Shown one piece after another: positions 1,325-50,063 of a stretch of 64,000 nucleotides of DNA. Source of the DNA: Elusimicrobiota bacterium (GTDB taxonomy: Bacteria; Elusimicrobiota; Elusimicrobia; F11); the NCBI GenBank assembly GCA_022072025.1, contig JAJVIP010000007.1, forward strand, positions 62,001 to 126,000, read 5' to 3'. Position 1 is the first letter of the stretch, and each line of letters opens with the position of its first letter. The position numbers and the translations under genes were made by a program. Below the pieces are notes generated by a model. The model ran no database searches. It was not told the origin of the DNA and worked only from the letters and a program-made list of their open reading frames with translations.

Positions 1325-2914
1325 TCATATAGGGGGCCGATTGTACAAAAGGTATTGCGTTAATTTGGCGACGGAGGCTTCGTTCAAGGGTTGAACCAAC
1401 CCTTCCACGTCTTGGGCGGCCTTTTCCCAAGCCACCAACATTGTTTCGTCAGTGGAACTTTCGCAAGAATATTTTTTAAGAACCTCCAAACCTTCCTCCA
1501 AAGAAGACACCTTTTCTTTCCACCCCTGCACCCAACACAAGGGATCAACCACAGGGCCCGGCTCCCCATTCCAATAAAGCGGCTTCACCCCCGCCAACAC
1601 CGAATAGAGGGCTGCGGAGGAACCCCGGTAGATCAATGTCGAAGCCCGCGAAAAATCGTCTTGAATATTCGGCACGCGAGATAATTCAATGTTCTGGAAA
1701 TCCTCTCTCCGTTTTTTCAAATGGGGCTCCACTTTTTCATAGGGCAGCACAGGATGACACCTGAAGACAAAGGCATGATCGGGCAACCGCACTGCCATCT
1801 CCATGGCCAAATCAAACAACAGAATCATTTCAGACAATATTCCCTCCGGTAAAATGAGTACTGTTTTTTTCTCGGGGCGAGGACGAATATCGACAAGAGA
1901 AGTGGCTATTCGCCGATGCGAACCATAAGCCAAGAAAGTGGGACTCCAATTTTTTAGCCCGCTTTCTAAAATCTCAAGGGTTCGCTCTCCCGTACAAAGA
2001 ACCATGTCGGGAACGTCCACCTCTCCCTCCACTTTTTTTGGATTTAACAACGCCAAGGAGTGAGGAAGCACAACGGTATGCTGATAACCCGCCAATTTCA
2101 GCGATGGATTTACTTTTTTAACGGCGCTCCAAAAAACTTTTTCCCACGGCTGACCTTCAAACAAAGAAATCACGGCCTTCGGCGTCCACCGACGAACGGC
2201 CCGCGTACCCATCCAGTCATACATATAATTCTTGGTGGTGAAAGGTCGAAGGACATCCAACGCCGCTCGAGCGGCTATCCGCTTAATCCAAAGTCGTGAC
2301 TCTTGGCGCGCCAACCTCCGCAACCGAATAGCGCATAAAAGTTGAGACGGAAGGGCCCGAAGCGGCGCGGTCCACGGGACCAGGAGGATATCAGGAAACC
2401 GATGGCCCTGATGAATTTTGAGGCAATCTCTCACGAACCGCCACGATTCAAGCCCCGCTTTTAATTTTGAGGTTAGCTTCCCATCATCTGACTTTGCGTC
2501 TCCCACAAGAAAAATTGTTCGAACGCCTTGCTTGTGCAAAAGATTTTGAAGCGGTCCATAATAAAAATCATCTGGCTTTGAGAGTCCTTCGCGCCCGGGA
2601 ACCCACGATTTAACAAGAATATCAACAGAGGTGTGCGGGCCCAGAAACCGGTGAAACGTGAAACTCATGATGGCCAGCCACAGCGAGTCATAAACTGCCG
2701 AAAACACACAAACCCACCAGCGAACAAAACAATTCAGAACACTGGGTATTTTGACCGGTTGATTCTGATCGGCTTGAGATAGAAGATCAAGATGTTCCGC
2801 CGGAACGGAATGTCGTGGATGGACCACACTCGACGCCAAGAGAACGGGCGATTTGATGAGACGGCGAATTTCTGCCGCCGCTTCAGACAGTTCTTTGTAG
2901 GGTTGTGGCCACAT
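1325..2914 (-). CDS. Capsule-type (GT-B-like) glycosyltransferase, putative
   Basis: About 529 residues from the ATG at 2914; an in-frame TTG at 2929 is the alternative. The C-terminal half has features of capsular polysaccharide or CDP-glycerol-transferase-like GT-B proteins: a YQHT segment, a strand-loop of the type AYGSHR, a basic-His-Pro motif (FRCHP) and a Ser-rich loop (GSSAALYSVLAG) followed by LYW, which in such enzymes contacts the donor nucleotide. The N-terminal half is divergent. It overlaps the end of the preceding large transferase-like gene by 32 nt and should be co-translated. Donor and acceptor are unknown; a CMP-nonulosonate donor is a reasonable guess from the locus only. 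Confidence 0.6.
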   Translation of the reverse strand: MWPQPYKELSEAAAEIRRLIKSPVLLASSVVHPRHSVPAEHLDLLSQADQNQPVKIPSVLNCFVRWWVCVFSAVYDSLWLAIMSFTFHRFLGPHTSVDILVKSWVPGREGLSKPDDFYYGPLQNLLHKQGVRTIFLVGDAKSDDGKLTSKLKAGLESWRFVRDCLKIHQGHRFPDILLVPWTAPLRALPSQLLCAIRLRRLARQESRLWIKRIAARAALDVLRPFTTKNYMYDWMGTRAVRRWTPKAVISLFEGQPWEKVFWSAVKKVNPSLKLAGYQHTVVLPHSLALLNPKKVEGEVDVPDMVLCTGERTLEILESGLKNWSPTFLAYGSHRRIATSLVDIRPRPEKKTVLILPEGILSEMILLFDLAMEMAVRLPDHAFVFRCHPVLPYEKVEPHLKKRREDFQNIELSRVPNIQDDFSRASTLIYRGSSAALYSVLAGVKPLYWNGEPGPVVDPLCWVQGWKEKVSSLEEGLEVLKKYSCESSTDETMLVAWEKAAQDVEGLVQPLNEASVAKLTQYLLYNRPPI

Positions 2915-5051
2915 CGGTTTTTGTTCCAAACGGCGTCACTTTTTGATTTTTAATTTCAACAATTTTGTCTTGGCCCCACTGTTTAACATAACGTTCTGCC
3001 GCTGCGGCCATCACATCGCTCCGGGCTTTCCCTTCTTTAAAACCTTGAATCAGCCAATCCAAATATGTGCCCATTCTTTTGGCTGCTTGACCATCTCGAA
3101 ACGGATCCAATTCAGGAAGGAAAGCAGTCCAATCTCCAAATCCCGGCAGGGTCTTCTTATCAGATAAATATTCTTTGATCAGGGGCCAAGCTTGCTCCCA
3201 ATCTCGAAACACCACGCGACCCTCCCCCAGATCGTAAAGTGGGCTCACGCGCCATCCCTCCAAGTCCATCAGAAGAGTGGGAACGCCCGCCAAAGCGGCC
3301 TCCACACCCGCTGTACCAGAGGCCAGGCAACTGTGGATCGCCAAATCTGAAACCAAGGCGGCGACCACCGGCGGATAGGCGCCTGTGAATTCTCCTTCCT
3401 CCAATACCACGCATCGTCCCGTGGCCTCCGCTTCTTTGAGCAGATCAGCAACTGGACCCAAACGGAAGCGCAAAGTTTTAGGTACTTTTGGCTTAAAAAT
3501 CACTCCCATCCAAGGGTCATTCAGAACTCGTTCACAAAGTGTTTTGTAACCTATGCGTTGAAGATCATGACCGGTGTGCCACCTGGGATCCCCGCCGGAA
3601 TTTTCATCAAAATAGGAAATAATTTTCCGAGCCCCGTTGCTAAGCAGCCTCTCACGCCACACTCGCGCTTGGTTTTTAAGGAGATGAAAACGATGATCTC
3701 CTAAATATCCGGTTGCAACGAAATAAGAAATATCCGACCTGGACCCTTTCTCAATTTCAATGGCATGAGGAGAAAAACCAAAAACAATATCGGAAGCGAT
3801 GGAGAGATCCGGCGCCGGAAGCGCGTCAAAGGCTCTCTGATAGATAGCCGTGACTCCGCCATTTTCCTCCATCGCATCGGCGATCGCACAATGATCAGAG
3901 GAGTATCGATACCAAGAGAGATAAATTTTCAGGTTTTCATTTCTAAAAACATGCGCCCAATTCTGTCGAAGGGCATGGTACTTGTCCAAAATGTCGCCAA
4001 TTCGTTGAGTTTCCAAACTTTTAGGAACCACCGGAATTGATGGCCTATTTTGTGCTTTCAAACGGCGACCGATGTCATACACGGGAACAGAGAAATCTGT
4101 GGTGGCCTCAGGACGAAGAACAACAGAAGAAATGCCGTGAGCGGATAATTCCAGGTGTTCCTTAGGATCAAACGGCATCAAACCGCTACCAAACAACACC
4201 ACCATATCGGATGCTGACAAAGAGGACTGCTGCAAATAAAACAGATCCGAATGGATCTCGGGCCGAGAGATGTTTAAATGTCCGTAATATTCCCCTCCTA
4301 TACGGGGAGAATGAAGAAGACGCCTGGAACGGGAATTGAAGATCCAGCGAAACACCTGACGTGAATATTGGGGGTCTTTAAAGTTTTTTCGACGAAATCG
4401 ATAAATGTTCACTATCTCGTTCAGCCAATCAGGCATCAATGGTTTTAACTCATCTCGAAGAAAATCCAATAGGTGAAAAGCACCCGGAACTGGAATCAGC
4501 AGAACACCCAGGCCAGATGAATAGGACTTGAGGATATGGTTCCACGGGGCCTTTTGAATAAATAATACGAGGTCGCTCTCTATCGTTGCGGTTGCTTGGC
4601 GCTGTTTCCACAAACAAAGATGAATCAAATAGAGGGTCCGACCCAGCGTGCCCCGGACCATAATCTGAACGTCACAGAGATTTTTATATACAAACGACCC
4701 CGCCCGATCTTTAAACAAACCGGCCTGCTCGAAACGCCGATAAAGCGGATCGTTTCGGATGGCGTCATTGATCTTGGCTGCCTCTATAAATGCCACTTTT
4801 AGTCGAACCAACAATCCATCAGAGTCTTTGACGTCCATCATTCGAAATTGAAATTTTTCAACGGAAAAACAGAACAGTCGGGCGGTTAAACGCGCTAAAC
4901 CCCACCCCAAATTTGATTGATCAATAACCAGACACCTAACATTCGACGTTTGATTCTTCGAGAATCCCTCTTTAAACAGTTGGGGCAAGACATGACACAA
5001 CCAAACCCGAACCGTGCAATGTTCAATGATGAGGAGGGAAGGCGAACTCAA
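2883..5051 (-). CDS. Large glycosyltransferase-like protein of the polysaccharide locus
   Basis: 722-residue protein with no signal peptide or clear membrane segments. The C-terminal third resembles a GT-B nucleotide-binding half: IFKPKVP, then AIHSCLASGTAGVEAALAG followed by VPTLLMDLEGW, the S/T-rich loop pattern also seen in the neighbouring 1325-2914 protein and in capsule transferases. The middle part (from about residue 280) has another Rossmann-like stretch. The start is TTG at 5051, overlapping the legC stop by 4 nt (TTGA); no good Shine-Dalgarno is visible, so re-initiation after legC is likely. It may transfer the sugar made by the leg genes, but that is inferred from position only. 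Confidence 0.5.
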   Translation of the reverse strand: MSSPSLLIIEHCTVRVWLCHVLPQLFKEGFSKNQTSNVRCLVIDQSNLGWGLARLTARLFCFSVEKFQFRMMDVKDSDGLLVRLKVAFIEAAKINDAIRNDPLYRRFEQAGLFKDRAGSFVYKNLCDVQIMVRGTLGRTLYLIHLCLWKQRQATATIESDLVLFIQKAPWNHILKSYSSGLGVLLIPVPGAFHLLDFLRDELKPLMPDWLNEIVNIYRFRRKNFKDPQYSRQVFRWIFNSRSRRLLHSPRIGGEYYGHLNISRPEIHSDLFYLQQSSLSASDMVVLFGSGLMPFDPKEHLELSAHGISSVVLRPEATTDFSVPVYDIGRRLKAQNRPSIPVVPKSLETQRIGDILDKYHALRQNWAHVFRNENLKIYLSWYRYSSDHCAIADAMEENGGVTAIYQRAFDALPAPDLSIASDIVFGFSPHAIEIEKGSRSDISYFVATGYLGDHRFHLLKNQARVWRERLLSNGARKIISYFDENSGGDPRWHTGHDLQRIGYKTLCERVLNDPWMGVIFKPKVPKTLRFRLGPVADLLKEAEATGRCVVLEEGEFTGAYPPVVAALVSDLAIHSCLASGTAGVEAALAGVPTLLMDLEGWRVSPLYDLGEGRVVFRDWEQAWPLIKEYLSDKKTLPGFGDWTAFLPELDPFRDGQAAKRMGTYLDWLIQGFKEGKARSDVMAAAAERYVKQWGQDKIVEIKNQKVTPFGTKTDVATTLQRTV

Positions 5052-22281: not shown

Positions 22282-23457
22282 CTATTTCAAATACACATGG
22301 TCCATGTCGCGTCCGCCGTTGGCCATCCGAATTCCCGGCTGACTTCCCATACAAGTAATTTGATGCGGCATGCCTTTGGGAATACAGACCACATCCCCCT
22401 TTTTGGTGTTGATCACCATGCCATCACCCAATTCCCATCGAAATTCTCCGTCTAAAGTGACCCACCATTCATCGTGAGTGACATGCATGTGTTTACGGCA
22501 GCCTTCCCCCGGTTTCTGACAAATGATTCCCGTTTGATCAGTGGCGGAATAAACCAACACATAAATCCATGGCGGCGGCCCCATCTCTTTTTTGATTTGG
22601 TCCAAGTTGCTATGACGGGCATTGGCCTTGTCATTCACAAATTTGGTGACGCCATCTCGGCGGATTAGATCCTCCAGGCAACTTTCCACGCCGACAAATC
22701 CCTCAGGAACTTTAAATTGCCCCGGCACCACGCGGTGTCGCCGATATTGGAGACAGGCCTCGGCCACCGCCAAGTCTTCGATGTTGTCCACATCAATGGC
22801 TTGTATGCGGTCCAGCGGGAAAACTCCCATTTTCCCAACATAGGTGGGCCCATTTTCCTTTTTTTCATCCCGTTTATAAGAGGCCATAAACGACTCCGTC
22901 CTCCATCCAGTCATGGCCCATGTAATCATTTGAATGGGGGGCAAAGTTTGGGTCGGAATTTTTTCAGAAAATGAAAAGTTGAGTGGACGGCCATCGAACA
23001 TGGTTTCGGTGTAACGCTCTTCGATGGAAAAAAGGGAATCATAATTCTCTCGCTCCAACTTTTCCATAAATGTTTTGATTGTTTCTGATTTCAGCAGCGG
23101 GCTCGTGGTATGAATCAAAGCCAGATAGGCAGGCTCATTAAGGTGTTCCATAAAATCATAAAGAAAATGATCGTGCGTCTGACAACGGTCCCCAACACAT
23201 TTTCTTGATTTATTCACCATTCGGCAGGCCGATCCACCTCGATGAGGAGGGCGCTGGTAAAATTGAACACCCAACATTTTCGACCAATCACGAAATATCA
23301 AATGCTCGGAATTAATGTGGATTTCATCGAAAGCGCCCGAAGCCTTGCAGGCTTCAACGACGCGGAACATCATTGGAAATCCATCCACCAATAGAAGATT
23401 CTTATCTGGAATTCTCTGACTCCCCAACAAAGCGGGAATCATGGCCACACGTTTCAT
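22282..23457 (-). CDS. Cytidylyltransferase-cupin fusion
   Basis: 391 residues with two parts. Residues 1-240 are a NeuA/KdsB-like cytidylyltransferase (IPALLGSQRIPDKNLLLVDG, ALIHTTSPLLKSETIK, AIDVDNIEDLAVAEAC); the first loop lacks the usual ARGGSK glycines, having LLGSQRIPDKN. Residues 295-385 form a cupin: HMHVTHDEWW gives the His-x-His...Glu set (H323, H325, E330) and PKGMPHQI the second His (H365). The cupin could be an epimerase/isomerase-like or sensory domain for the sugar. ATG 23457 overlaps the SIS gene by ATGA. Fusion of these domains is unusual and suggests modification and activation of one sugar. Confidence 0.8.
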   Translation of the reverse strand: MKRVAMIPALLGSQRIPDKNLLLVDGFPMMFRVVEACKASGAFDEIHINSEHLIFRDWSKMLGVQFYQRPPHRGGSACRMVNKSRKCVGDRCQTHDHFLYDFMEHLNEPAYLALIHTTSPLLKSETIKTFMEKLERENYDSLFSIEERYTETMFDGRPLNFSFSEKIPTQTLPPIQMITWAMTGWRTESFMASYKRDEKKENGPTYVGKMGVFPLDRIQAIDVDNIEDLAVAEACLQYRRHRVVPGQFKVPEGFVGVESCLEDLIRRDGVTKFVNDKANARHSNLDQIKKEMGPPPWIYVLVYSATDQTGIICQKPGEGCRKHMHVTHDEWWVTLDGEFRWELGDGMVINTKKGDVVCIPKGMPHQITCMGSQPGIRMANGGRDMDHVYLK

Positions 23458-24011
23458 GCGCCTTTCTGTTCCTCAATAATTAAATCGCATACAGACAACA
23501 GCCACACCAAATGGGTATTTTCTACGATGTTGTAGGACGTGCTGTCCACCCACAAGTTAATTTTTCCCAATGATTTCATGGGGTTTTGGCTGGAAAACCC
23601 GGTCACCGTCGCCAAACGAAACCCTTGTTTGGCGGCCCACTGGGACGCATGAACCATGTTGGGGGACTTTCCGCTTGAACTGATCAACACCACCACATCG
23701 CCCTTGTCCGCGTAAAATTCCAAGGCCTTTTGAACCCAGTTCTCATAGCCATAATCATTCGCAAAACAGGTGATCAAATCCGCTTCGTTGAAGTTGACGG
23801 CCCGAATACCAGCGGTTTTGGTGAAATCAACCGCGCAATGACTGGCCATGGCCGCGCTGCCGCCGTTACCGACAAAGATGGTTTTCTTTCCTGCCTTGTG
23901 AGCCTCGACAATCCAATTTTTCAGCTCAACCAAATCCTTATAGACAGAAACTTGAGGAATTGATTTCTGATATTGAGAGAAATAATTAGACAGCCATTCC
24001 TTCTCGTTCAT
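23454..24011 (-). CDS. SIS-domain phosphosugar isomerase (GmhA-like)
   Basis: 185-residue single SIS domain protein. GNGGSAAMASHCAVDFTK (48-65) binds the sugar phosphate; FANDYGYENW, LISSSGKSPN and ENTHLVWLLSVCDLI match the sedoheptulose-7-phosphate isomerase GmhA family, including the Glu and His residues used for catalysis. It may provide a heptose 7-phosphate, or act as a related ketose/aldose isomerase. Strong Shine-Dalgarno AAGGAG 7 nt before ATG 24011; overlaps the Gfo gene by 26 nt. In this locus a heptose role would fit the HddA-like kinase at 44354-45385 and the HAD domain at 37387-39747. Confidence 0.82.
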   Translation of the reverse strand: MNEKEWLSNYFSQYQKSIPQVSVYKDLVELKNWIVEAHKAGKKTIFVGNGGSAAMASHCAVDFTKTAGIRAVNFNEADLITCFANDYGYENWVQKALEFYADKGDVVVLISSSGKSPNMVHASQWAAKQGFRLATVTGFSSQNPMKSLGKINLWVDSTSYNIVENTHLVWLLSVCDLIIEEQKGA

Positions 24012-33915: not shown

Positions 33916-35006
33916 GAAGGTAACGGAGCCTCTTGTTTCTTTTCATCAATCGCTTGCTGAAGAGTGCGCAGTTTCACTTCTTGATCGGGAGTCAAGCGGC
34001 GGACAAAATCTCCCAGTCCATTGGCAATTCCAAAAATAACCTGGGGATTGTGCACATTGTCGACCACCACCTCCCCCTCCCATCCCAGCAATCCCCCTGA
34101 AACCAAAGGAACGCCCTGCCATTCTCGCCGCCCCACGGTATGATTGAGGAGGCGTTCCATCTCCAATAGAGTGGCAACCATCCCTTCAAACCCCGCACGA
34201 ATATCCACGCGTAAAATTCGAAAATTCCTTTCTCTTGCCACCGTGATGGCCTCAGGAGAAATACAGCCTTTCCCAGCATCAAGAATCAACGCCTTGTCAT
34301 GTAAATGTTGGACCATCGTTTTGGTGATCACCGGCAATCCTTCTGTCATTCCGATTAATACATCGGCTTCAATCGCCGCCTTCTCATTGTCCGTCAGGCC
34401 CGTGACTTGGGCCACCGTGAAAGGCGGTTTAACAATATTGAGTGTCTGAACAAGAGTTTCTAATTTCTTTTTGTCCCGGCGAGTGATGACCACTTGAGCG
34501 CCGCGCTCCACTTCTTTCAAAGCCAATTTAAAACCCAAATTCCCCGCGCCCAGGATCACCACTTTTTTTCCACCCATACCCCGGATGGGGTCTTGTATGG
34601 ATTGATTCAACAAAGCGTCAATCGATTCCACCGTTAAATCGTTTCCTTTGTATGTGAGAACCCGAGACCGCTTGGCGGCATCCCGTACAGCGCGTTCAAT
34701 GTTTCCTTTGTCATCTATTCCGTAGACCGAAACATCAGGCCGCACTTTCTTTTCCGTGTCGACCAACAAATAATTCACCCGCCCATCCACCAGTCGCGCA
34801 ATGGCTTCGGCATGATGCGCTTCATAAACGATGACGCTTCCCGCCACAAGTTTCGTCGTGTTGCGAATGGGGGTAAAGAAAAAACCATGTGAATCCACTT
34901 TCGTGGTGTTCCCAATACAAAAACCACTGAGTTTATTTTCCTGGCGGGCGATGGCCAGTACTCGTTCAAGAATATTTTCCAATTGGTCACGATGAGCAAT
35001 ATTCAT
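33912..35006 (-). CDS. Rossmann-fold NAD(P)-binding protein, role unknown
   Basis: 364 residues from ATG 35006, which makes TAATG with the preceding stop and has GGGAGGA 8 nt upstream; the in-frame GTG at 35021 overlaps that Shine-Dalgarno and is unlikely. VVILGAGNLGFKLALKEVERGAQVVITRRDKKK is a classical dinucleotide-binding motif starting near residue 148, resembling shikimate or alanine dehydrogenase/glutamyl-tRNA reductase domains. The first 145 residues form an unassigned domain (FCIGNTTKVDSHGFFFTPIRNTT). Near the C-terminus VDNVHNPQVIFGIANGLGD is distinctive. I do not recognise a family. Coupling to the NeuB fusion and SpsF suggests an enzyme of the same sugar. Confidence 0.6.
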   Translation of the reverse strand: MNIAHRDQLENILERVLAIARQENKLSGFCIGNTTKVDSHGFFFTPIRNTTKLVAGSVIVYEAHHAEAIARLVDGRVNYLLVDTEKKVRPDVSVYGIDDKGNIERAVRDAAKRSRVLTYKGNDLTVESIDALLNQSIQDPIRGMGGKKVVILGAGNLGFKLALKEVERGAQVVITRRDKKKLETLVQTLNIVKPPFTVAQVTGLTDNEKAAIEADVLIGMTEGLPVITKTMVQHLHDKALILDAGKGCISPEAITVARERNFRILRVDIRAGFEGMVATLLEMERLLNHTVGRREWQGVPLVSGGLLGWEGEVVVDNVHNPQVIFGIANGLGDFVRRLTPDQEVKLRTLQQAIDEKKQEAPLPS

Positions 35007-37390
35007 TAAATATCCTCCCACGTGATGGGGAAATCCGCTTCGATGGCGTGACGCGCTGGTCGCCCCGCCACAATGTCCAAATAGACTGGTTGAAGCCCCC
35101 CACCAGGCCCCTTGATGGCAATCGCGTCCCTTTCAATGATTTGTCCTTTGGCAATGGGGACTTTCGCATAGAGACTTTTTCGTTGAGCATTGATGGTGTC
35201 ATACTCGTTGGGTTGAATCCGTTTTACTCCGTCTCCGAGAATTTGGTTGATCTGTCCCGCTGTTCGGACCAAAACTTTCATCTCTTCAGGCTCGGAAGAA
35301 AAGACATGGTCAGGCCCTTCGAGCATTCGATCCAAAGTGAAATGTCGCTCGATGGCATTGGCTCCGATGGCCATCGCCAACTGAGACACCGTAACCCCCA
35401 ACGTGTGATCGGAAAAACCAACAGGAACGCGAAAAGATTTCTTGAGTGTTTCGATGACACGCAAATTCATGCTCTCCGGGGCGGCGGGGTAAGAAGACAC
35501 ACAATGAAGCAGAATGACATTGGCGTTCCCTTCCGATTTGACCGCTTCAAGCGCTTCTTCAATTTGACCGATGGTGGACATGCCTGTCGATAAGATGAGA
35601 GGTTTTTTTGTGGAAGCCACTTTTTTAAGGAGGGGAATATTGACCAAATCAAAAGAAGCCAATTTATAAAACGGGGTCCCCACCGATTCCAGCAACTCAA
35701 CGCTGCCTTCATCGAAGGGAGTAGAAAAAATCAATATCCCTTTGTTCTTCGCGTAATCAAATAAATGGACATGGTCTTCTTTTTTTAACTCGTGGCGCTG
35801 AAACATCTCAAGCAATGTTTCCTCTGTTCCAATGACAGTCTCCGCATATTTCATCTTTTTGACTTTTCCAGAGATGCGGTTGGCGCTCTGATAGGTTTGA
35901 AATTTAACCGCATCCACCCCGGCCTCAACCGCTTTGTCAATGAGTCGCAAGGCCATCTCCAAACTTCCGTTGTGGTTCAGGCCTGCTTCCGCGATGATGA
36001 ACGGTTTATGCCCATCTCCCACGGCCCGCCCCGCCAACTCCACCACTTCGTTTAGTTTGGTCACGTTTTGTTTACGCTTGACCTGGGAAAAATCGGAATA
36101 TTGATTGGTCAGAATATCCACCAAATCAAACGCCTTTTGAAAAAGAATTTGACTGTCCGCATAACTGAATTCCCCAGTGGTTCCAATGGTATAGAGTTGA
36201 TTGTACTCTCCCAACCGGCTTTGAGCGTTGGCCAAATCATGCTGATAATCTTTGCGAAGAAGCGGGTACACCGCCGATTGGCGATGGATGGAGGTGGCCA
36301 AAATTTCTTCTTTTTTGGCGAGACCCGTTTTCAAAAAATCATTCAAAGCCCGATCCACAAGCGCCTGATCACTTTGTCGGTCCAGTTCGTCATCTTTGCT
36401 GTAAGCAATTTCCAGCGTTACGCAGGTTTTACCTGGCACTGCTGTGTCACGAGAGAGTTTCTTTTGTTCGCTGATTCGGTTGAAAATAAGTTCGGGGGCG
36501 TCATAGTAAAGCCAATGTAATTTATCAGGAATCGCATATTCTTTGTTGATGGCGATAAACACCGAAATAATGCCACGGAAGGTCAAAGGGCATGCAAAAC
36601 CCAATAACTGAGACATCACATTAATGGGAATTGTTGAAATCACAACATCTTGAGTGCCAACGGAAAGATTGCGCCCGTTTTTTAGTTTGAGTTCTAAAAT
36701 TTCATGACCTTTCGTGGTCACACCCACCACGGGTTCGGACAAATGGATTTTCCCACCCAGCTTTACGATCCGTTTTTGAATTTCATCATAAACACAACCC
36801 GTCCCGAATTTACCCGCCGCGTTCCATTGACCATGATAAAAAGCCGTGTCTTTTTGCCGCAGTTCCACACGTTTGGGCGCCCAGAGCGGCGTCATTTCAT
36901 CGGTTGAAAGACCCCACACTTTTTTTGGGTAACGCTCAAAAAACATCTCTTGCAAGGTGGGCCCCACCAAAGCCCGAATGTATTCTTTATAACTCCGCGC
37001 TTTGGTTCGGTCGAGCGCGTTGGCTTGTTCGAGTTCCGTGATCACGCGACGCGCCACTTCTTTGGGGTATTTGGCGATGCTCTCGTATGAAAGCGGATAA
37101 GGATAGTATTCGTCAAAGTTTTTACCTTTCACGTTGCAACAACGGTAATCATCTTTGACGAACAAATCCCCAAACTCACTCTCCCAAAATTCTGCCATTT
37201 GGGGGTCCGGCGTGTGAAAAAGGTGGGGACCCACATCCACCAGAAAATCCCCCCACCGCCAAGTGCGGGACATACCGGCGATGAAAGGTTCTTTTTCAAA
37301 GATTTCAACCTCCCAACCCCGTTCGAGCAATTTCCAGGCTGTCACCAATCCGCTGACGCCCGCGCCAAGAATATAGGCTTTTCGTTTCAT
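35006..37390 (-). CDS. FAD-dependent oxidase/mutase-like domain fused to NeuB-family synthase
   Basis: 794 residues in two enzymes. Residues 1-435 are an FAD protein of the amine-oxidase/UDP-galactopyranose-mutase-like superfamily: LGAGVSGLVTAWKL (8-21), EKEPFIAGMSRTW, VGPHLFHTPD and YPKKVWGLSTDEMTPLWAPKR. Residues 446-794 are a complete NeuB-type synthase: FIIAEAGLNHNGSL (464-477), AVKFQTY, FSTPFD, LSTGMSTIGQI, LLHCVSSYPAAPE, GFSDHTLG, ERHFTLD, and a SAF domain from about 735. ATG 37390 overlaps the HAD-ABC stop as ATGA. The linker contains no start or stop, so it is one polypeptide. It likely modifies a sugar by oxidation or ring isomerisation and condenses it with PEP, or tethers two enzymes of one pathway. 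Confidence 0.85.
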   Translation of the reverse strand: MKRKAYILGAGVSGLVTAWKLLERGWEVEIFEKEPFIAGMSRTWRWGDFLVDVGPHLFHTPDPQMAEFWESEFGDLFVKDDYRCCNVKGKNFDEYYPYPLSYESIAKYPKEVARRVITELEQANALDRTKARSYKEYIRALVGPTLQEMFFERYPKKVWGLSTDEMTPLWAPKRVELRQKDTAFYHGQWNAAGKFGTGCVYDEIQKRIVKLGGKIHLSEPVVGVTTKGHEILELKLKNGRNLSVGTQDVVISTIPINVMSQLLGFACPLTFRGIISVFIAINKEYAIPDKLHWLYYDAPELIFNRISEQKKLSRDTAVPGKTCVTLEIAYSKDDELDRQSDQALVDRALNDFLKTGLAKKEEILATSIHRQSAVYPLLRKDYQHDLANAQSRLGEYNQLYTIGTTGEFSYADSQILFQKAFDLVDILTNQYSDFSQVKRKQNVTKLNEVVELAGRAVGDGHKPFIIAEAGLNHNGSLEMALRLIDKAVEAGVDAVKFQTYQSANRISGKVKKMKYAETVIGTEETLLEMFQRHELKKEDHVHLFDYAKNKGILIFSTPFDEGSVELLESVGTPFYKLASFDLVNIPLLKKVASTKKPLILSTGMSTIGQIEEALEAVKSEGNANVILLHCVSSYPAAPESMNLRVIETLKKSFRVPVGFSDHTLGVTVSQLAMAIGANAIERHFTLDRMLEGPDHVFSSEPEEMKVLVRTAGQINQILGDGVKRIQPNEYDTINAQRKSLYAKVPIAKGQIIERDAIAIKGPGGGLQPVYLDIVAGRPARHAIEADFPITWEDI

Positions 37391-39747
37391 AGCGCGCTCT
37401 CTTTGGGAGTTACCATAGATTCCTCATCATCTCCCAAATACAGACGGGCATAGGAGCTTTTGGCGGACATAAGCGAATCATGAGTGCCCTGTTCAACCAC
37501 CACTCCTTTTTCAATAAAAACAATATTGTCGACATCCTTGATGGTGCTCAAGCGATGTGCGATCACCAAAATAATCGCATCTTTTCTCAGAATATCGATG
37601 GCTTTATAGACCGCCTTTTCAGTTAAGTTGTCCAAAGCGCTGGTGGCTTCATCGAAAATTAATACTTGTGGTTTTCTTAAGATTGCTCTGGCCAAAGCCA
37701 CTCGTTGGTTTTGCCCGCCCGACAACCGGAGACCTCGGTCCCCCACCATGGTATCGTAACCTTCGGGAAGAGTTAGAACGAAATCATGTAATTGCGCCAA
37801 TTTGGCCGCGTTAATAATATCTTCTTCTTTCACATCTGGTTTCCAGAGAGCAATATTTTCCTTAAGAGTGGTGTTAAAAAGAAATACATCTTGGCTAACA
37901 TACCCAATATGATTCCGCCAAGAAGTAAGAAGAAGGTTTTGAAAATTTATGTCATTAATTTTTATGGCTCCGGACCTGGGTTCATAAAGTCCTATGAGCA
38001 AATTGGCAATGGTGCTTTTGCCGGATCCTGAAGGGCCCACCAACGCCGTAATTGAATTCACTTTAAAAGATAAATTAACACCCTTGAGGACCATCGTGTC
38101 GGGTTTGGTGTCATAATAAAATGAAACATCTTCAAACCGGATTTCTTCAATTCGAGGCGGGGCTTCCTGCCCGCCCCTTCGTTCTAGGATTGTCCGCTTT
38201 TTCAGTTGTTCCAAGATCTCCAACCCCCGGCGCCATTTATTCAAATCGACACTGGCAGAGGATATACTCGACAAAGCAGGATTCGCCTTTCGTAAGGAGA
38301 AAAAAATACCAACCAAGGTGGCAAAGGTCATGTTTGGGGCCGGCCATATAAAGGTAAAAACACCCAAGACGGCAATCAGAATAAAAGCCAGGGCTTCGTT
38401 ACCCACCATGGGTGAATTTCGGAAAAAAATCATTTGAATCATTGGCTTCTTTTCATTTTCAAGAAATACCCGATGTTTGGCCACCATTGTCGATTCCAAC
38501 GCATTGGATTTGACCACACGAATTCCATCGAGCGCATCCACTTCAAGGTGTGACTGATGGCGTTTTGCTTCGTAAAGGTCGAACCCGCAAGCCGCAGTTA
38601 ATTTCGGCAAATACTGTTTCCAAATAAGCATACTCAACACACCCATGGCCGCAATTATTAAAGTGGCCCACCAAGACAAATAGGCCATGACAGCAATCAT
38701 GGCAACACAGTTCACCACTCCCGTCGATATGGTACCCAATTGCATGAAAGCACCCCAAATCGATTCTGCGGGTTGCGTAATATCCGAAATGGCGACGCCG
38801 CGACTCTTTTTCGAAAAAATTTCATAGTGAGTGCGCAACGAATTCTCAAAAAGTTGGGATTTTGTAATCCGATATAATCCATGACCCATCCTGCCAAGAA
38901 AATATTGTTGAAGCATCAAGATGCCGCTTCTCATGAAAAAAAGGAAACACGCCAATAAAAGCAGCAAAAAAATAACTCGTCCAGAATTAACACCCAGCCC
39001 CAAATTGGACATTGCCAACATCACCCATTGACTGAGCAGGTTCGAGCTGGACCCGCTTGGGTTCGAGACCACATCCGCCAAAGGTACCATCACCCCCACC
39101 GTTAGAATATCGAAGAGGGCCCCCACCAAAGTTATCGCGAGCATGGCCATCATTTTCCATCGATAGGGAGAAATCACAACACGCCAGTACAAGGAGGCGC
39201 GCTCTATTTGGTCTGCCAATTTAAGGGAGAAACTTTTTCCTTTTCGGACAATCTCTTTTTGAACGATTTCCCGAAGCGGGTTTTGTTCTGTCACGATAAA
39301 TGTGGGACAACCAACTGCGCGACCCGCCACCAGGTCTCTTTCATCGCATCCTATGAACGCGGTTGAAGAAAAATCAAGATTGAAATCAGCTTTGGCACGA
39401 AGAAAAAGACCCGATTTTGGCTTTCGACAGTCGCATCCCGACTCGAGCGAATGAGAACAAACATAAAAAGCGTCAATTCGTCCTCCCAATCGGAAAAGAT
39501 CCATTTGCAATCGGTCATGTATCTTCTGAAGATCCGCCTCAGTGAGCTGACCACTTGCCAGCCCCTCTTGGGTGGTAACGACAATCACTTTGTATCCAGA
39601 CTTGCCAAGTTGGGCGATCGCCTCAGCTGATCCCGGTATCCAGTGAAAATCTTCCGGGGATAAAACATATCGACTGAGCGTGGATTTGTAATTGATAACT
39701 CCATCACGCTCTAAAAAAACGGCACGGATTGGACGAGAGGAAGTCAT
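37387..39747 (-). CDS. HAD (GmhB-like) domain fused to ABC exporter
   Basis: 786 residues. Residues 1-155 are a HAD-IIIA domain like heptose-bisphosphate phosphatase GmhB/HisB: FLERDGVINY, zinc ligands C97, H99, C105, C107 (CSHS, GCDCRKP) and IGCDERD. The nucleophilic Asp of motif I is Glu (E13) and motif II reads TTQEGL instead of NQSGI, so phosphatase activity is doubtful. Residues about 195-480 hold the membrane segments of an exporter; 535-770 are the nucleotide-binding domain with GPSGSGKST (571-579), LSGGQ (675-679), VLIFDEATSALD (695-706) and an H-loop His in IAHRLST. Likely a lipid-linked glycan flippase (PglK/MsbA type). ATG 39747, ATGA overlap with the reductase gene. Confidence 0.85.
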   Translation of the reverse strand: MTSSRPIRAVFLERDGVINYKSTLSRYVLSPEDFHWIPGSAEAIAQLGKSGYKVIVVTTQEGLASGQLTEADLQKIHDRLQMDLFRLGGRIDAFYVCSHSLESGCDCRKPKSGLFLRAKADFNLDFSSTAFIGCDERDLVAGRAVGCPTFIVTEQNPLREIVQKEIVRKGKSFSLKLADQIERASLYWRVVISPYRWKMMAMLAITLVGALFDILTVGVMVPLADVVSNPSGSSSNLLSQWVMLAMSNLGLGVNSGRVIFLLLLLACFLFFMRSGILMLQQYFLGRMGHGLYRITKSQLFENSLRTHYEIFSKKSRGVAISDITQPAESIWGAFMQLGTISTGVVNCVAMIAVMAYLSWWATLIIAAMGVLSMLIWKQYLPKLTAACGFDLYEAKRHQSHLEVDALDGIRVVKSNALESTMVAKHRVFLENEKKPMIQMIFFRNSPMVGNEALAFILIAVLGVFTFIWPAPNMTFATLVGIFFSLRKANPALSSISSASVDLNKWRRGLEILEQLKKRTILERRGGQEAPPRIEEIRFEDVSFYYDTKPDTMVLKGVNLSFKVNSITALVGPSGSGKSTIANLLIGLYEPRSGAIKINDINFQNLLLTSWRNHIGYVSQDVFLFNTTLKENIALWKPDVKEEDIINAAKLAQLHDFVLTLPEGYDTMVGDRGLRLSGGQNQRVALARAILRKPQVLIFDEATSALDNLTEKAVYKAIDILRKDAIILVIAHRLSTIKDVDNIVFIEKGVVVEQGTHDSLMSAKSSYARLYLGDDEESMVTPKESAL

Positions 39748-40715
39748 TTTGCCATCACCTCGCCGCGCTTCTGCAGACCTCGAACCTGGGGAAATCTCTT
39801 ACAGAAATCCTCCACCATCGCTTTCAGTCCAACGTTGAAGGACGTCATTTTAAAGTCGGGCAACAGTCGACGGAATTTAGAGACGTCTGTTTTACGACTG
39901 AACCGTCCATCTGGTTGGGAAGCGTCCCAATACACTGTGCCTTTGAAATTCAATAGGTGAGTGACGTCATCGACCAATTCTCGGACCGATATATCTGATG
40001 ATGGAGAAATAATCATGGGTTCGGGATCGTCGAAATGGTCCACGGCCCAAAGCAGGATGTGGGCCATGTCTGTCGCATAGGTAAATTCGCGACGCGGCTT
40101 CCCCGAACCCCAAAAAGTCACATCTGCTCCTTTCAATTTTGCGTCATAAATTTTCTGCAGTACCGCTGGCAAGACATGGCTCTTCTCCGGGTCGTAGTTG
40201 TCATTTTCTCCGTATAAAGTTGAAGGAACCAGTGAGACGTAGGTGTTCTTGCCCCCCGAAGATCGGGTTATTTCTCGACTCATTAAGTCCAATTCGCGTT
40301 TGGCTTGCGCATATCCCCATTGTCGACGGTCCACTTCTCCCTGATGAATCATTTTTTCACTCCAGGGTTCTGGCGCATCGTTTGGAAAAATACAAGTGGA
40401 CAGGATGGAAATAACCTTGGGGACATGACAGGAGAGGGCGGAATTGAGGAGATTTTGGTTGATACGTCGATTTTTATCCAAGAGCTCTTCGGGTTTCTCC
40501 ATGTTGTATTTGATCCCCCCCACCACAGCAGCCAGATGGAGGATGACATCCGGCCGGACACTCTCGATCAACTGCCTGATATCGCTGGCATTTTCCAAGT
40601 CCGCATCTTTGCGATCAATGAACGTAAACGAATGTAAAGAAGTCCCGGCCACATTTTTAACAGCGGTCCCCAGAAGCCCCGTTGAACCCGTCACGAGAAT
40701 TTTCTTCCGCGTCAT
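39744..40715 (-). CDS. GDP-L-fucose-synthase-like epimerase/reductase
   Basis: 323-residue extended SDR closely resembling GDP-L-fucose synthase (Fcl/WcaG): ILVTGSTGLLG at 6-16, HLAAVVGGI, SILSTCIFP with the catalytic Ser and Cys, Y135-x3-K139 in GYAQAKRELD, NDNYDPEKSHVLPA with the active-site His, and RREFTYATDMA. These enzymes epimerise C3/C5 and reduce C4 of GDP-4-keto-6-deoxy sugars. It would suit the GMD-like dehydratase at 45401-46408; relatives act on GDP-colitose (ColC) or GDP-6-deoxyheptose pathways. ATG 40715 with ATGA overlap to the Nudix gene. Confidence 0.85.
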   Translation of the reverse strand: MTRKKILVTGSTGLLGTAVKNVAGTSLHSFTFIDRKDADLENASDIRQLIESVRPDVILHLAAVVGGIKYNMEKPEELLDKNRRINQNLLNSALSCHVPKVISILSTCIFPNDAPEPWSEKMIHQGEVDRRQWGYAQAKRELDLMSREITRSSGGKNTYVSLVPSTLYGENDNYDPEKSHVLPAVLQKIYDAKLKGADVTFWGSGKPRREFTYATDMAHILLWAVDHFDDPEPMIISPSSDISVRELVDDVTHLLNFKGTVYWDASQPDGRFSRKTDVSKFRRLLPDFKMTSFNVGLKAMVEDFCKRFPQVRGLQKRGEVMAK

Positions 40716-44353: not shown

Positions 44354-45385
44354 TTAAACAACCAACTCTTTGGGTTTGATGGGGTTTTTGCTAACCGCAT
44401 CCCGGTCGTAAAAAATAATTTCACTGCCGGTTGAACTGAAGCGAAAAGGAACATGCAGAACGTCATTCAGTTTCGCGATAATCGCGGGTTGATTTTCAGG
44501 AGGAGCCATCAGCAGCATGAACCCCCCCCCTCCGGCCCCCACGACTTTTCCACCCAACGCGCCAGCGGAACGGGCGATTTCATAAATTTCATCGATACGG
44601 GGGTTAGATATTTTGTTGGTCAGCCCCCGCTTGAGGAGCCAGCTTTCGTGTAAAAGTTTTCCGAATTCGCGAAGGCTTCCGTTTCCATTTAGAATATTGG
44701 TTGCTTCACTCACCATTTGATACATCGTGGATAATTCTGCTTTCTTATGCGGCGTCATTTTGATCTGTTCAGCGGCAATGTCTGTCGCATTCCTTGAAAA
44801 ACCGGTGAAAAGAAGCATCAAGTGGTCTTGGAGTTCGTTGTATCGATGGTTGGGCAATATGATGGGTGTCACCCGGATCGGGTTTTCTCCAGCCCTGAAA
44901 TCAATGCGGTTAAAACCTCCGAATGCGGCGAGCGTCTGATCCTGACATCCAACATTTTCCGGAATCAATTCCTGCTCCACTTTGATCGCATCCAAGGCGA
45001 GCTGCATTTTACTCGGCATATTGCCTCGATAAGCATAGAGGACATTCAATAGACCCACCGTAAATGTCGAACTGGTTCCCAAACCGGCGCGAGCCGGCAA
45101 ATCGGCATCATGATGAAGCTCAATCCCCTCTTTTATGTTCATGAACCGGAAGGCCTCTCTCACCGCAGGGTGTTGAATATCATCAATTCCGTCCACACAC
45201 TCCATCTTTGAATAAATGATCCGGGACTTGTATCCGAAAAAAGGCGGTAAATGACGACAACTGATATAGCAATGTTTATTTATCGTCGTGGCGAGAACGG
45301 CCCCTTCATGTTCACGAAACCAAATGGGGTAATCGGTCCCCCCTCCAAAAAAGGAAACGCGAAATGGTGTTCGGCTGATAATCAT
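44354..45385 (-). CDS. hddA: HddA-like GHMP sugar kinase
   Basis: 343-residue GHMP kinase. RTPFRVSFFGGGTDYP at the N-terminus and LPARAGLGTSSTFTVGL (about 96-112, the ATP-phosphate loop) together with GGKVVGAGGGGFMLLM near the C-terminus match D-glycero-D-manno-heptose 7-phosphate kinase HddA and related fucose-type kinases. HddA phosphorylates C1 of heptose 7-phosphate before GDP transfer. ATG 45385; 15 bp after the dehydratase stop. In combination with the GmhA-like SIS protein and the GMD-like dehydratase it suggests a GDP-heptose route, but the guanylyltransferase HddC is not in the window. Confidence 0.83.
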   Translation of the reverse strand: MIISRTPFRVSFFGGGTDYPIWFREHEGAVLATTINKHCYISCRHLPPFFGYKSRIIYSKMECVDGIDDIQHPAVREAFRFMNIKEGIELHHDADLPARAGLGTSSTFTVGLLNVLYAYRGNMPSKMQLALDAIKVEQELIPENVGCQDQTLAAFGGFNRIDFRAGENPIRVTPIILPNHRYNELQDHLMLLFTGFSRNATDIAAEQIKMTPHKKAELSTMYQMVSEATNILNGNGSLREFGKLLHESWLLKRGLTNKISNPRIDEIYEIARSAGALGGKVVGAGGGGFMLLMAPPENQPAIIAKLNDVLHVPFRFSSTGSEIIFYDRDAVSKNPIKPKELVV

Positions 45386-45400
45386 GGAGACTCTCAGACC

Positions 45401-46408
45401 TTAACGACTGAGCACGGCCGTCTTCAAACGGGAAGGGTCGTCCCGTTCGATTTCGCCACGCCAGTAATTCAGCATATCGACCAGTGTTTGTTTGTAGTCA
45501 ACCACAGGTTTCCAACCGGTTTGTTTGCGGAACTTTTCCGTAGATGGAATCTGCAACGTGACATCGGCTGGACGGAAAAGAGCGGGATCCACTTTAACTT
45601 CAATTTTCCCCTTGAAGGTCGTCATTCCCAATAAAAGATCAAGCGCCTCACCTACTTTCATCGTAACGGCGCCACCGATGTTATAGACCTCGCCCGGCGG
45701 ACACTTGGAAACAAGGAGCCAATAGGCCCGAATGGTGTCTTTGACATCACAAAAAGTCCTGACCGATTCAAGGTTGCCCACATGGACGACAGGATCTTGA
45801 AGACCCGCCTCAATCAAGGCAATTTGCTTGGCAAAAAAGGAATCAACAAAAACTTCGCCCCGACGTGCGCCGCTGTGGGTAAACATTCGAGTCCGAATGG
45901 TTTTTAATCCATAGGCTGCGTGGTACATAAAACCCAGCATGTCCTCTCCCACTTTGCTGACAGCATAAGGGCTCACGGGCCTCAAAGGACATTCTTCAGT
46001 GATGGGCACTTCTTCTGGCCGAACCTGGCCATAAACTTCTGAAGAGGAACAAATGTGAATGACCGGATCGATTTTGGTGGCGCGAACCGCTTCAAGCAAA
46101 TGAGTCGTTCCAACTATATTCGTTTCCATCGTATCCGCCGGAGCGATATAACTGGTGGGAACAAAGGATTGGGCGGCCAAATGAAAAATGATGTCAGGTT
46201 TAATCGAGCTGAACACCGTAATGAGAGAACCCAGATCGCGAAGATCACAATCCACAAGTTGAACCTGTTTAAGAATCCCTCTGATATTGTCCTTGGGACT
46301 CCTCCATCGTTTGATGCCATAAACTTTGACGTCAGGATGTTCAGCGAGAATATATTCAGCGAGATGACTGCCAACGAATCCTGTAATACCGGTTATGAGT
46401 ACACGCAT
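45401..46408 (-). CDS. GDP-mannose-4,6-dehydratase-like SDR
   Basis: 335 residues. ITGITGFVGSHLAEY binds NAD(P); HLAAQSFVPTSYIAP, CSSSEVYG, SPYAVSKVGED (Tyr and Lys) and RTRMFTHSGARRGEVF are hallmarks of GDP-mannose 4,6-dehydratase and of its RMD and GDP-heptose (DmhA) relatives. GNLESVRTFCDVKDTIRAYWLL is also typical. It should make a GDP-4-keto-6-deoxy sugar, the substrate for the ColD/RfbH-like enzyme encoded just upstream. ATG 46408 with strong AGAGGAGA. GMD, RMD and DmhA cannot be separated by eye. Confidence 0.85.
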   Translation of the reverse strand: MRVLITGITGFVGSHLAEYILAEHPDVKVYGIKRWRSPKDNIRGILKQVQLVDCDLRDLGSLITVFSSIKPDIIFHLAAQSFVPTSYIAPADTMETNIVGTTHLLEAVRATKIDPVIHICSSSEVYGQVRPEEVPITEECPLRPVSPYAVSKVGEDMLGFMYHAAYGLKTIRTRMFTHSGARRGEVFVDSFFAKQIALIEAGLQDPVVHVGNLESVRTFCDVKDTIRAYWLLVSKCPPGEVYNIGGAVTMKVGEALDLLLGMTTFKGKIEVKVDPALFRPADVTLQIPSTEKFRKQTGWKPVVDYKQTLVDMLNYWRGEIERDDPSRLKTAVLSR

Positions 46409-49723: not shown

Positions 49724-49827
49724 CTCAAACCTCGCATCGATTGATTCAGCTTGCACCGACTGTTAATCATTAAATTGCTATTCATAGCGCAGCCCCGCCG
49801 CAACCCAACAAGGGATCAAGCATGACC

Positions 49828-49999
49828 GTCGTCCCGGCCCAATTTTTAAGGGATGTGTTCGCCGAGAAGAGTATAAGCCGGGACCCAGCCTCTCCCGAGG
49901 GTGAGGTGTGTGCATCACACCTTCTGCCGGAACGACTGGGCCCTGGCTTATCCACCTGCCAACAATCACTCCACTTAAAAGCTAGGCCGGGGCGACAGC
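49828..49999. repeat. Nested inverted-repeat element in the 340-bp gap before the E1 alpha gene
   Basis: The only gene-free stretch above 300 bp, 49724-50063, holds a nested palindrome. Outer arms are GTCGTCCCGGCC (49828-49839) with trailing TTTTTAAG and GGCCGGGGCGAC (49985-49996) preceded by CTTAAAAG. Inner arms are ATAAGCCGGGACCCAG (49873-49888) and CTGGGCCCTGGCTTAT (49936-49951), with a short GGTGTG...CACACC hairpin (49905-49921) in the centre. It resembles a dispersed palindromic repeat (MITE-like). A weak promoter-like pair (TTGGGT, 16 bp, TATGAA) lies between it and the E1 alpha gene. No protein is credible in the element. Confidence 0.75.
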
Positions 50000-50063
50000 G
50001 GACTTCAAATATTTCTTCGTATAAAAACATGATCTCACGATTCCATTTCATAAAGGGGTCCAT

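Follow-up and report, generated by a model that had tools for sequence, protein, structure and literature searches.

What might a phosphatase domain that has lost its nucleophile be doing at the front of an ABC exporter? The question is raised by a reading frame of 786 codons in the window (the whole stretch of 64,000 nucleotides analysed here), which an earlier note described as a GmhB-like HAD domain, with Glu in the place of the nucleophilic Asp, ahead of a glycan-type exporter. On re-reading, the position, strand, length and frame given there are correct, the zinc ligands C97, H99, C105 and C107 are the residues named, and the motifs FLERDG (E13, codon GAG) and TTQEGL both read the same in the sequence. 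A catalytically altered phosphatase domain ahead of a glycan-type exporter is backed by the sequence and by a confident structural model. We regard it as confirmed that the union of this HAD domain and its altered active site with the exporter is real and not a chance reading. The fusion is ordinary in its parts and unusual in their union. The features discussed below are listed in Table 1.

Table 1. Parts of the fusion gene, residues of its HAD active site and neighbouring genes, in window positions
Feature	Coordinates	Strand	Details
Whole reading frame, HAD-ABC fusion, 786 aa	37387..39747	(-)	ATGA overlaps with both neighbours, 39744-39747 and 37387-37390
GmhB-like HAD domain, residues 1-165	39253..39747	(-)	Pfam and NCBIfam matches, PDB matches, AlphaFold2 model, Foldseek
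Linker, residues 166-190	39178..39252	(-)	poor model confidence; blocks within 171-190 at pLDDT 53 and 48
ABC exporter half, residues 191-786	37390..39177	(-)	membrane part and ATPase
Motif I, FLERDG	39700..39717	(-)	Asp nucleophile replaced by Glu13 (GAG), Asp15 kept; alignment, sequence
Motif II region, VTTQEGLASG	39550..39579	(-)	Asn59 to Thr, Ser61 to Glu, Arg65 to Ser; Thr58 and Gln60 kept; alignment, sequence
Zinc ligands C97, H99, C105, C107 and motif III R108-K109-P110	39418..39459	(-)	all kept; alignment, sequence
Motif IV, IGCDERD	39334..39354	(-)	metal Asp134 replaced by Cys (TGC), Asp138 kept; alignment, sequence
GDP-fucose-synthase-like reductase, directly upstream	39744..40715	(-)	NF047922, 201 bits, below cut-off
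HddA-like GHMP kinase, same cluster	44354..45385	(-)	NF049969, 143 bits, cut-off 600
GDP-sugar 4,6-dehydratase-like protein	45401..46408	(-)	PF16363
GmhA-like sugar-phosphate isomerase, same window	23454..24011	(-)	TIGR00441, 78 bits, below cut-off
Downstream neighbour, an unusual fusion	35006-37390	(-)	flavin amine-oxidase/UDP-galactopyranose-mutase-like part, then NeuB with SAF domain

The exporter half is complete. Both Pfam and NCBIfam place a half-size ABC exporter in residues 191-786, with an ABC_membrane part (PF00664, 60.7 bits) and an ABC_tran part (PF00005, 114.9 bits) in which the Walker A motif GPSGSGKST, the signature LSGGQ, the Walker B motif VLIFDEATSAL and the H-loop AHRLST are all intact. 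It has the same full membrane part and ATPase as the MsbA, HepA and PglK exporters and differs from them by its N-terminal HAD extension. Its scores lie under the equivalog cut-offs (316.9 of 602 bits for TIGR02203, 344.1 of 725 for NF045513 and 230.3 of 1000 for NF050066). The cargo expected of an exporter of this family is a lipid-linked glycan, not a free sugar phosphate; the cluster context suggests that this glycan may contain heptose. The exporter part may also be translated separately, from an internal start: in-frame candidates are TTG at 177 and 186, GTG at 191 and ATG at 199, 200 and 202; by eye, none of them has a clear ribosome site.

Residues 1-165 match the GmhB/HAD-IIIA families, and their closest PDB matches are 4pnh, 3l8h, 3l8e and 2gmw. 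Against the equivalog model NF006506 the domain scores 146.6 bits, under the cut-off of 178, as does an intact GmhB from another locus (L070, 167.6 bits). An AlphaFold2 model of residues 1-190, built with 28 distant HAD rows as input, reached a mean pLDDT of 90.1 and a pTM of 0.85; between residues 11 and 160 most blocks stand at 95 or higher, and the linker is loose after 170. Foldseek returned GmhB structures as the best matches to it (3l8h, E 2.9e-16; 3l8e, E 1.7e-14; then 2gmw), and the modelled fold is GmhB-like. Structure predictors are insensitive to point changes of the kind found here, so the model supports a plausible fold and not a working pocket.

How far has the active site been lost? 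We aligned the domain with 41 homologues, dropping repeat copies of the same loci. Thirty-eight of them come from other genomes of the same class, two are GmhB proteins of the same genome and one is from a Selenomonadaceae contig; they are a sample of the 213 class genomes (of 235) with a match and are weighted towards the best matches. Asp13, Asn59 and Asp134 are each present in 41/41 homologues, so that the window protein, with Glu, Thr and Cys, is alone in altering any of the three. At position 65, where it has Ser, the homologues have Arg (39/41) or Lys (2/41), and at position 61, where it has Glu, they have Ser (34), Ala (4) or Pro (3). The DxD pair of GmhB motif I has thus become E13/D15, and C134 stands where motif IV of GmhB has its metal-binding Asp. 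The zinc loop C-x-H ... C-x-C is present, and Asp15, Gly16, Thr58, Gln60, Arg108-Lys109-Pro110, Gly133 and Asp138 are kept. Compared with the GmhB structures 3l8e, 2gmw, 3l8h and 4pnh, the domain shares the fold, the four zinc ligands and the CRKP motif but differs in the nucleophile, in the Asn and Arg of the motif II region and in the metal Asp of motif IV. By the PDB alignment with 3l8e, counted by hand, E13, T59 and C134 correspond to D11, N54 and D136 of Escherichia coli GmhB, and the zinc ligands to its C92, H94, C107 and C109; we take D11 to be the nucleophile, and D136 to bind metal. The earlier note was right about Glu13 and the change in motif II and overlooked Cys134 and Ser65; read from the alignment, the active-site loss is somewhat deeper than it described.

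The changes are also unevenly placed. At 5 of the 28 columns that are at least 90% conserved the window protein differs, and four of these are active-site columns, giving 4/9 changed in the active site vs 1/19 elsewhere (one-sided Fisher p = 0.026, with the active-site columns named by us from the known HAD motifs). Two of the 41 homologues (L080 and L069) also differ at 5 of these columns; the number of changes alone is therefore not unusual, but the choice of columns is. From these residues it is highly probable that the HAD domain does not work as a normal phosphatase, and we infer that its catalytic activity has been lost. Nor would binding of heptose phosphate by the pocket be assured: since Asn59, Arg65 and Asp134 have gone along with the nucleophile, ligand binding may have gone too.

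Could the domain still be an enzyme whose chemistry has changed, a phosphatase or a phosphotransferase that uses Glu13 or Asp15 and has Cys134 in its metal site? Asp15, Thr58, Lys109 and Asp138 are kept, and, speculatively, Cys134 and Glu13 could as a pair hold another metal. Against this, the nucleophile, the motif II Asn and the motif IV metal Asp, each invariant among the 41 homologues, are all replaced, and we consider such an enzyme quite improbable. An assembly or base-calling artefact in a draft genome of 43 contigs would agree with a fusion that is seen once, but it is less credible still, and we believe in it hardly at all. Four separate residues are altered, which a single base error would not suffice to produce; the 786 codons run without a stop or frame break; and the start and stop each overlap a neighbouring gene by 4 bases.

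Losses of catalytic residues do occur in GmhB-like domains elsewhere. Fifty distinct HAD rows (49 viral, one Selenomonadaceae) were inspected by eye, and L192 has Ala as nucleophile and L147 Asn at motif IV; the patterns of the viral scan held LDRD or NQ and so favour complete domains, and these rows were kept out of the counts above. The L192 domain lies on a viral contig and its motif I reads MARDG. A mirror image of the window domain was also seen: L060 (G054:C41:24998-25435) conserves the catalytic residues and has three of the four zinc ligands replaced, by Ser, Asn and Leu.

The earlier note proposed looking in other genomes for the same fusion and the same Glu, and neither turned up a second time. 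A search with the full protein across the phylum (340 genomes, E <= 1e-88) gave two matches, itself and an exporter without HAD in genome G014; a second fusion was not found in 60 relatives either, and the fusion stands at 1/340 genomes of the phylum. The HAD part matched in 213 of 235 class genomes, and among the matches listed only the window's own frame exceeds 685 aa; none of 12 translated long-frame HAD loci matched the exporter part (phmmer, E <= 1e-50). Beyond the phylum the search was shallow. A contig scan with residues 1-343, a weak one in that it used six window-specific patterns, gave a single locus, an ordinary GmhB of Selenomonadaceae, and among plasmids 81 records matched the exporter, none covering 80% of the query. 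At the DNA level we looked for F-(L/F)-E-(R/S)-D-G with an RYN codon after it, a pattern that covers this exact motif; it matched 30 times in 28/334 genomes, and of these 30 loci only the window's own has a GmhB-like HAD (phmmer, E <= 10). In open-access papers we found no description of a GmhB-exporter fusion or of a GmhB pseudoenzyme. With the fusion in 1/340 genomes, no conservation supports any function for it. The earlier note would have given up its reading on finding homologues with Asp and separate genes in close relatives, and this is largely what there is: the kin of the HAD part have Asp in 41/41 cases, and the nearest kin of the exporter is without the HAD.

The two halves have separate kin, which indicates that two separate pieces were joined in the window. 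A maximum-likelihood tree of 42 rows puts the window HAD in one clade, with support 100/99, with three HADs, each the C-terminal half of an HddC-GmhB protein (L039/L077, L040/L076 and L041/L078). These are 44-47% identical to it, have complete catalytic residues with an Asp nucleophile, and carry C-terminal of the HAD a tail that by eye resembles the window's. In them a catalytic HAD lies behind a nucleotidyltransferase, whereas in the window a HAD that has lost its catalytic residues lies before an exporter. Full-length HddC-GmhB matches above 450 bits number three in 334 genomes, the query included, and a fourth, more distant one (G121) scores 157 bits. The end branch of the window HAD measures 0.99 from the common fork vs 0.69 to 0.77 for the three sister rows, as expected of relaxed selection. 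As for the exporter, its nearest relative among the 340 phylum genomes, MsbA-like rows apart, is that of G014 (40% identity, 496 bits); the next matches in the 60 relatives reach at most 263 bits. The G014 exporter starts shortly before its membrane part, and its cluster holds a glycosyltransferase and dehydrogenase pair resembling the window's, together with genes read by eye as sulfate-activation genes.

Is a working GmhB domain needed here at all? The window's cluster has no neighbouring HddC; within the genome the strongest HddC match lies on contig C2, near 62-67 kb, in an HddA-HddC-GmhB cluster. Near 112-128 kb the same contig has an LPS-core cluster with LpxK, a heptosyltransferase, a second GmhB, an RfaE kinase domain and KdsB. 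LpxK, RfaE and KdsB pass their cut-offs, while the names GmhA, HddA, HddC and GmhB stand for equivalog matches below the curated cut-offs. Both of these other GmhB proteins keep the equivalents of Asp13, Asn59, Arg65 and Asp134, so catalysis need not come from the fused domain. In Campylobacter jejuni, too, the gene of the GmhB that serves capsule GDP-heptose is described as lying in the ADP-heptose cluster and not in that of the capsule (PMC10680097). Elsewhere in the window, 22282-23457 (-) encodes a cytidylyltransferase joined to a cupin domain, and 1325-5051 (-) encodes two large polysaccharide-cluster proteins of 534 and 722 aa with no Pfam match at E <= 1e-4.

One explanation is that the domain is a passenger: an HddC part was lost, which left its GmhB part in one frame with the exporter gene that follows, and catalysis faded because other GmhB proteins supply it, the fold surviving since misfolding would harm the exporter. 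Several things speak for such a relic, namely that the fusion is a singleton, that each sister HAD is the C-terminal half of an HddC fusion, that HddA-like and GmhA-like genes lie in the window's cluster with no adjacent HddC, that GmhB proteins with catalytic residues are encoded elsewhere in the genome, and that the branch of the window HAD is long. Yet the changes cluster in the active site and the zinc and fold residues stay, and neutral decay should remove both alike, an argument whose force depends on the time since the fusion. We take this explanation seriously as a possible one, short of believing it.

The reading that we prefer, at a probability of roughly 0.45, is that the domain would be a pseudo-phosphatase serving the exporter as a cytosolic docking or gating domain. 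The protein would then be a homodimer-type exporter of a lipid-linked glycan with a pseudo-phosphatase at its N-terminus. Its HAD shares an ancestor with the GmhB half of the bifunctional HddC-GmhB enzymes of GDP-heptose synthesis; it would have been joined to the exporter of a polysaccharide cluster and have lost catalysis, with the fold, the zinc site and some of the phosphate pocket kept. The N-terminus of such exporters is cytosolic, so the HAD domain would hang below each membrane half, probably in the cytosol and immediately ahead of the first membrane helix in each subunit. Both this place and the docking or gating role are what we infer. From there the domain might keep the transporter near the heptose or glycan enzymes, or near the glycan or nucleotide-sugar that it handles.

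A transporter that appears to work in a similar way is HlyB. Its C39-like domain is described as having no peptidase activity and as the main determinant of substrate recognition (PMC11026475), and like the window protein it has a dead N-terminal enzyme domain before an ABC exporter (PMC11026475); its domain is unrelated and its substrate is a protein. The earlier note suggested that the HAD might sense or bind, as a module, the sugar-phosphate being exported, which is reasonable as an analogy. A more specific version would turn the phosphatase fold into a cytosolic receptor whose Glu13/Glu61/Cys134 pocket gates the glycan flippase. This pocket might bind a heptose phosphate, GDP-heptose or the end of the lipid-linked glycan, possibly with a different metal, and the exporter would run only where the right heptose is on the glycan or can be made by the cell. 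Such a receptor, which we think unlikely, would parallel, for carbohydrates, the dead peptidase domain in HlyB.

If the domain is functional, a biosynthetic enzyme would have been recruited by fusion and stripped of catalysis, and would now couple sugar-nucleotide synthesis to glycan export. It would also provide a simple test system, in which one domain is deleted or swapped, for how a flippase recognises its glycan. Should it be a passenger, the gene clearly catches a pathway enzyme in the midst of its decay after an accidental fusion. Whatever the domain does, automatic annotation could wrongly credit the fusion protein with GmhB activity.

A last observation concerns a dispersed repeat of about 270 bp at 49782-50052 (+). 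It matches no Rfam family above the gathering score, and the window's copy contains no ungapped inverted repeat of at least 14 bp. There are 24 near-full copies, the window's included, at 85-100% identity among 45 matches in its own genome, and some of the same copies match more weakly on the opposite strand (67-78%), so that the repeat is partly self-complementary.
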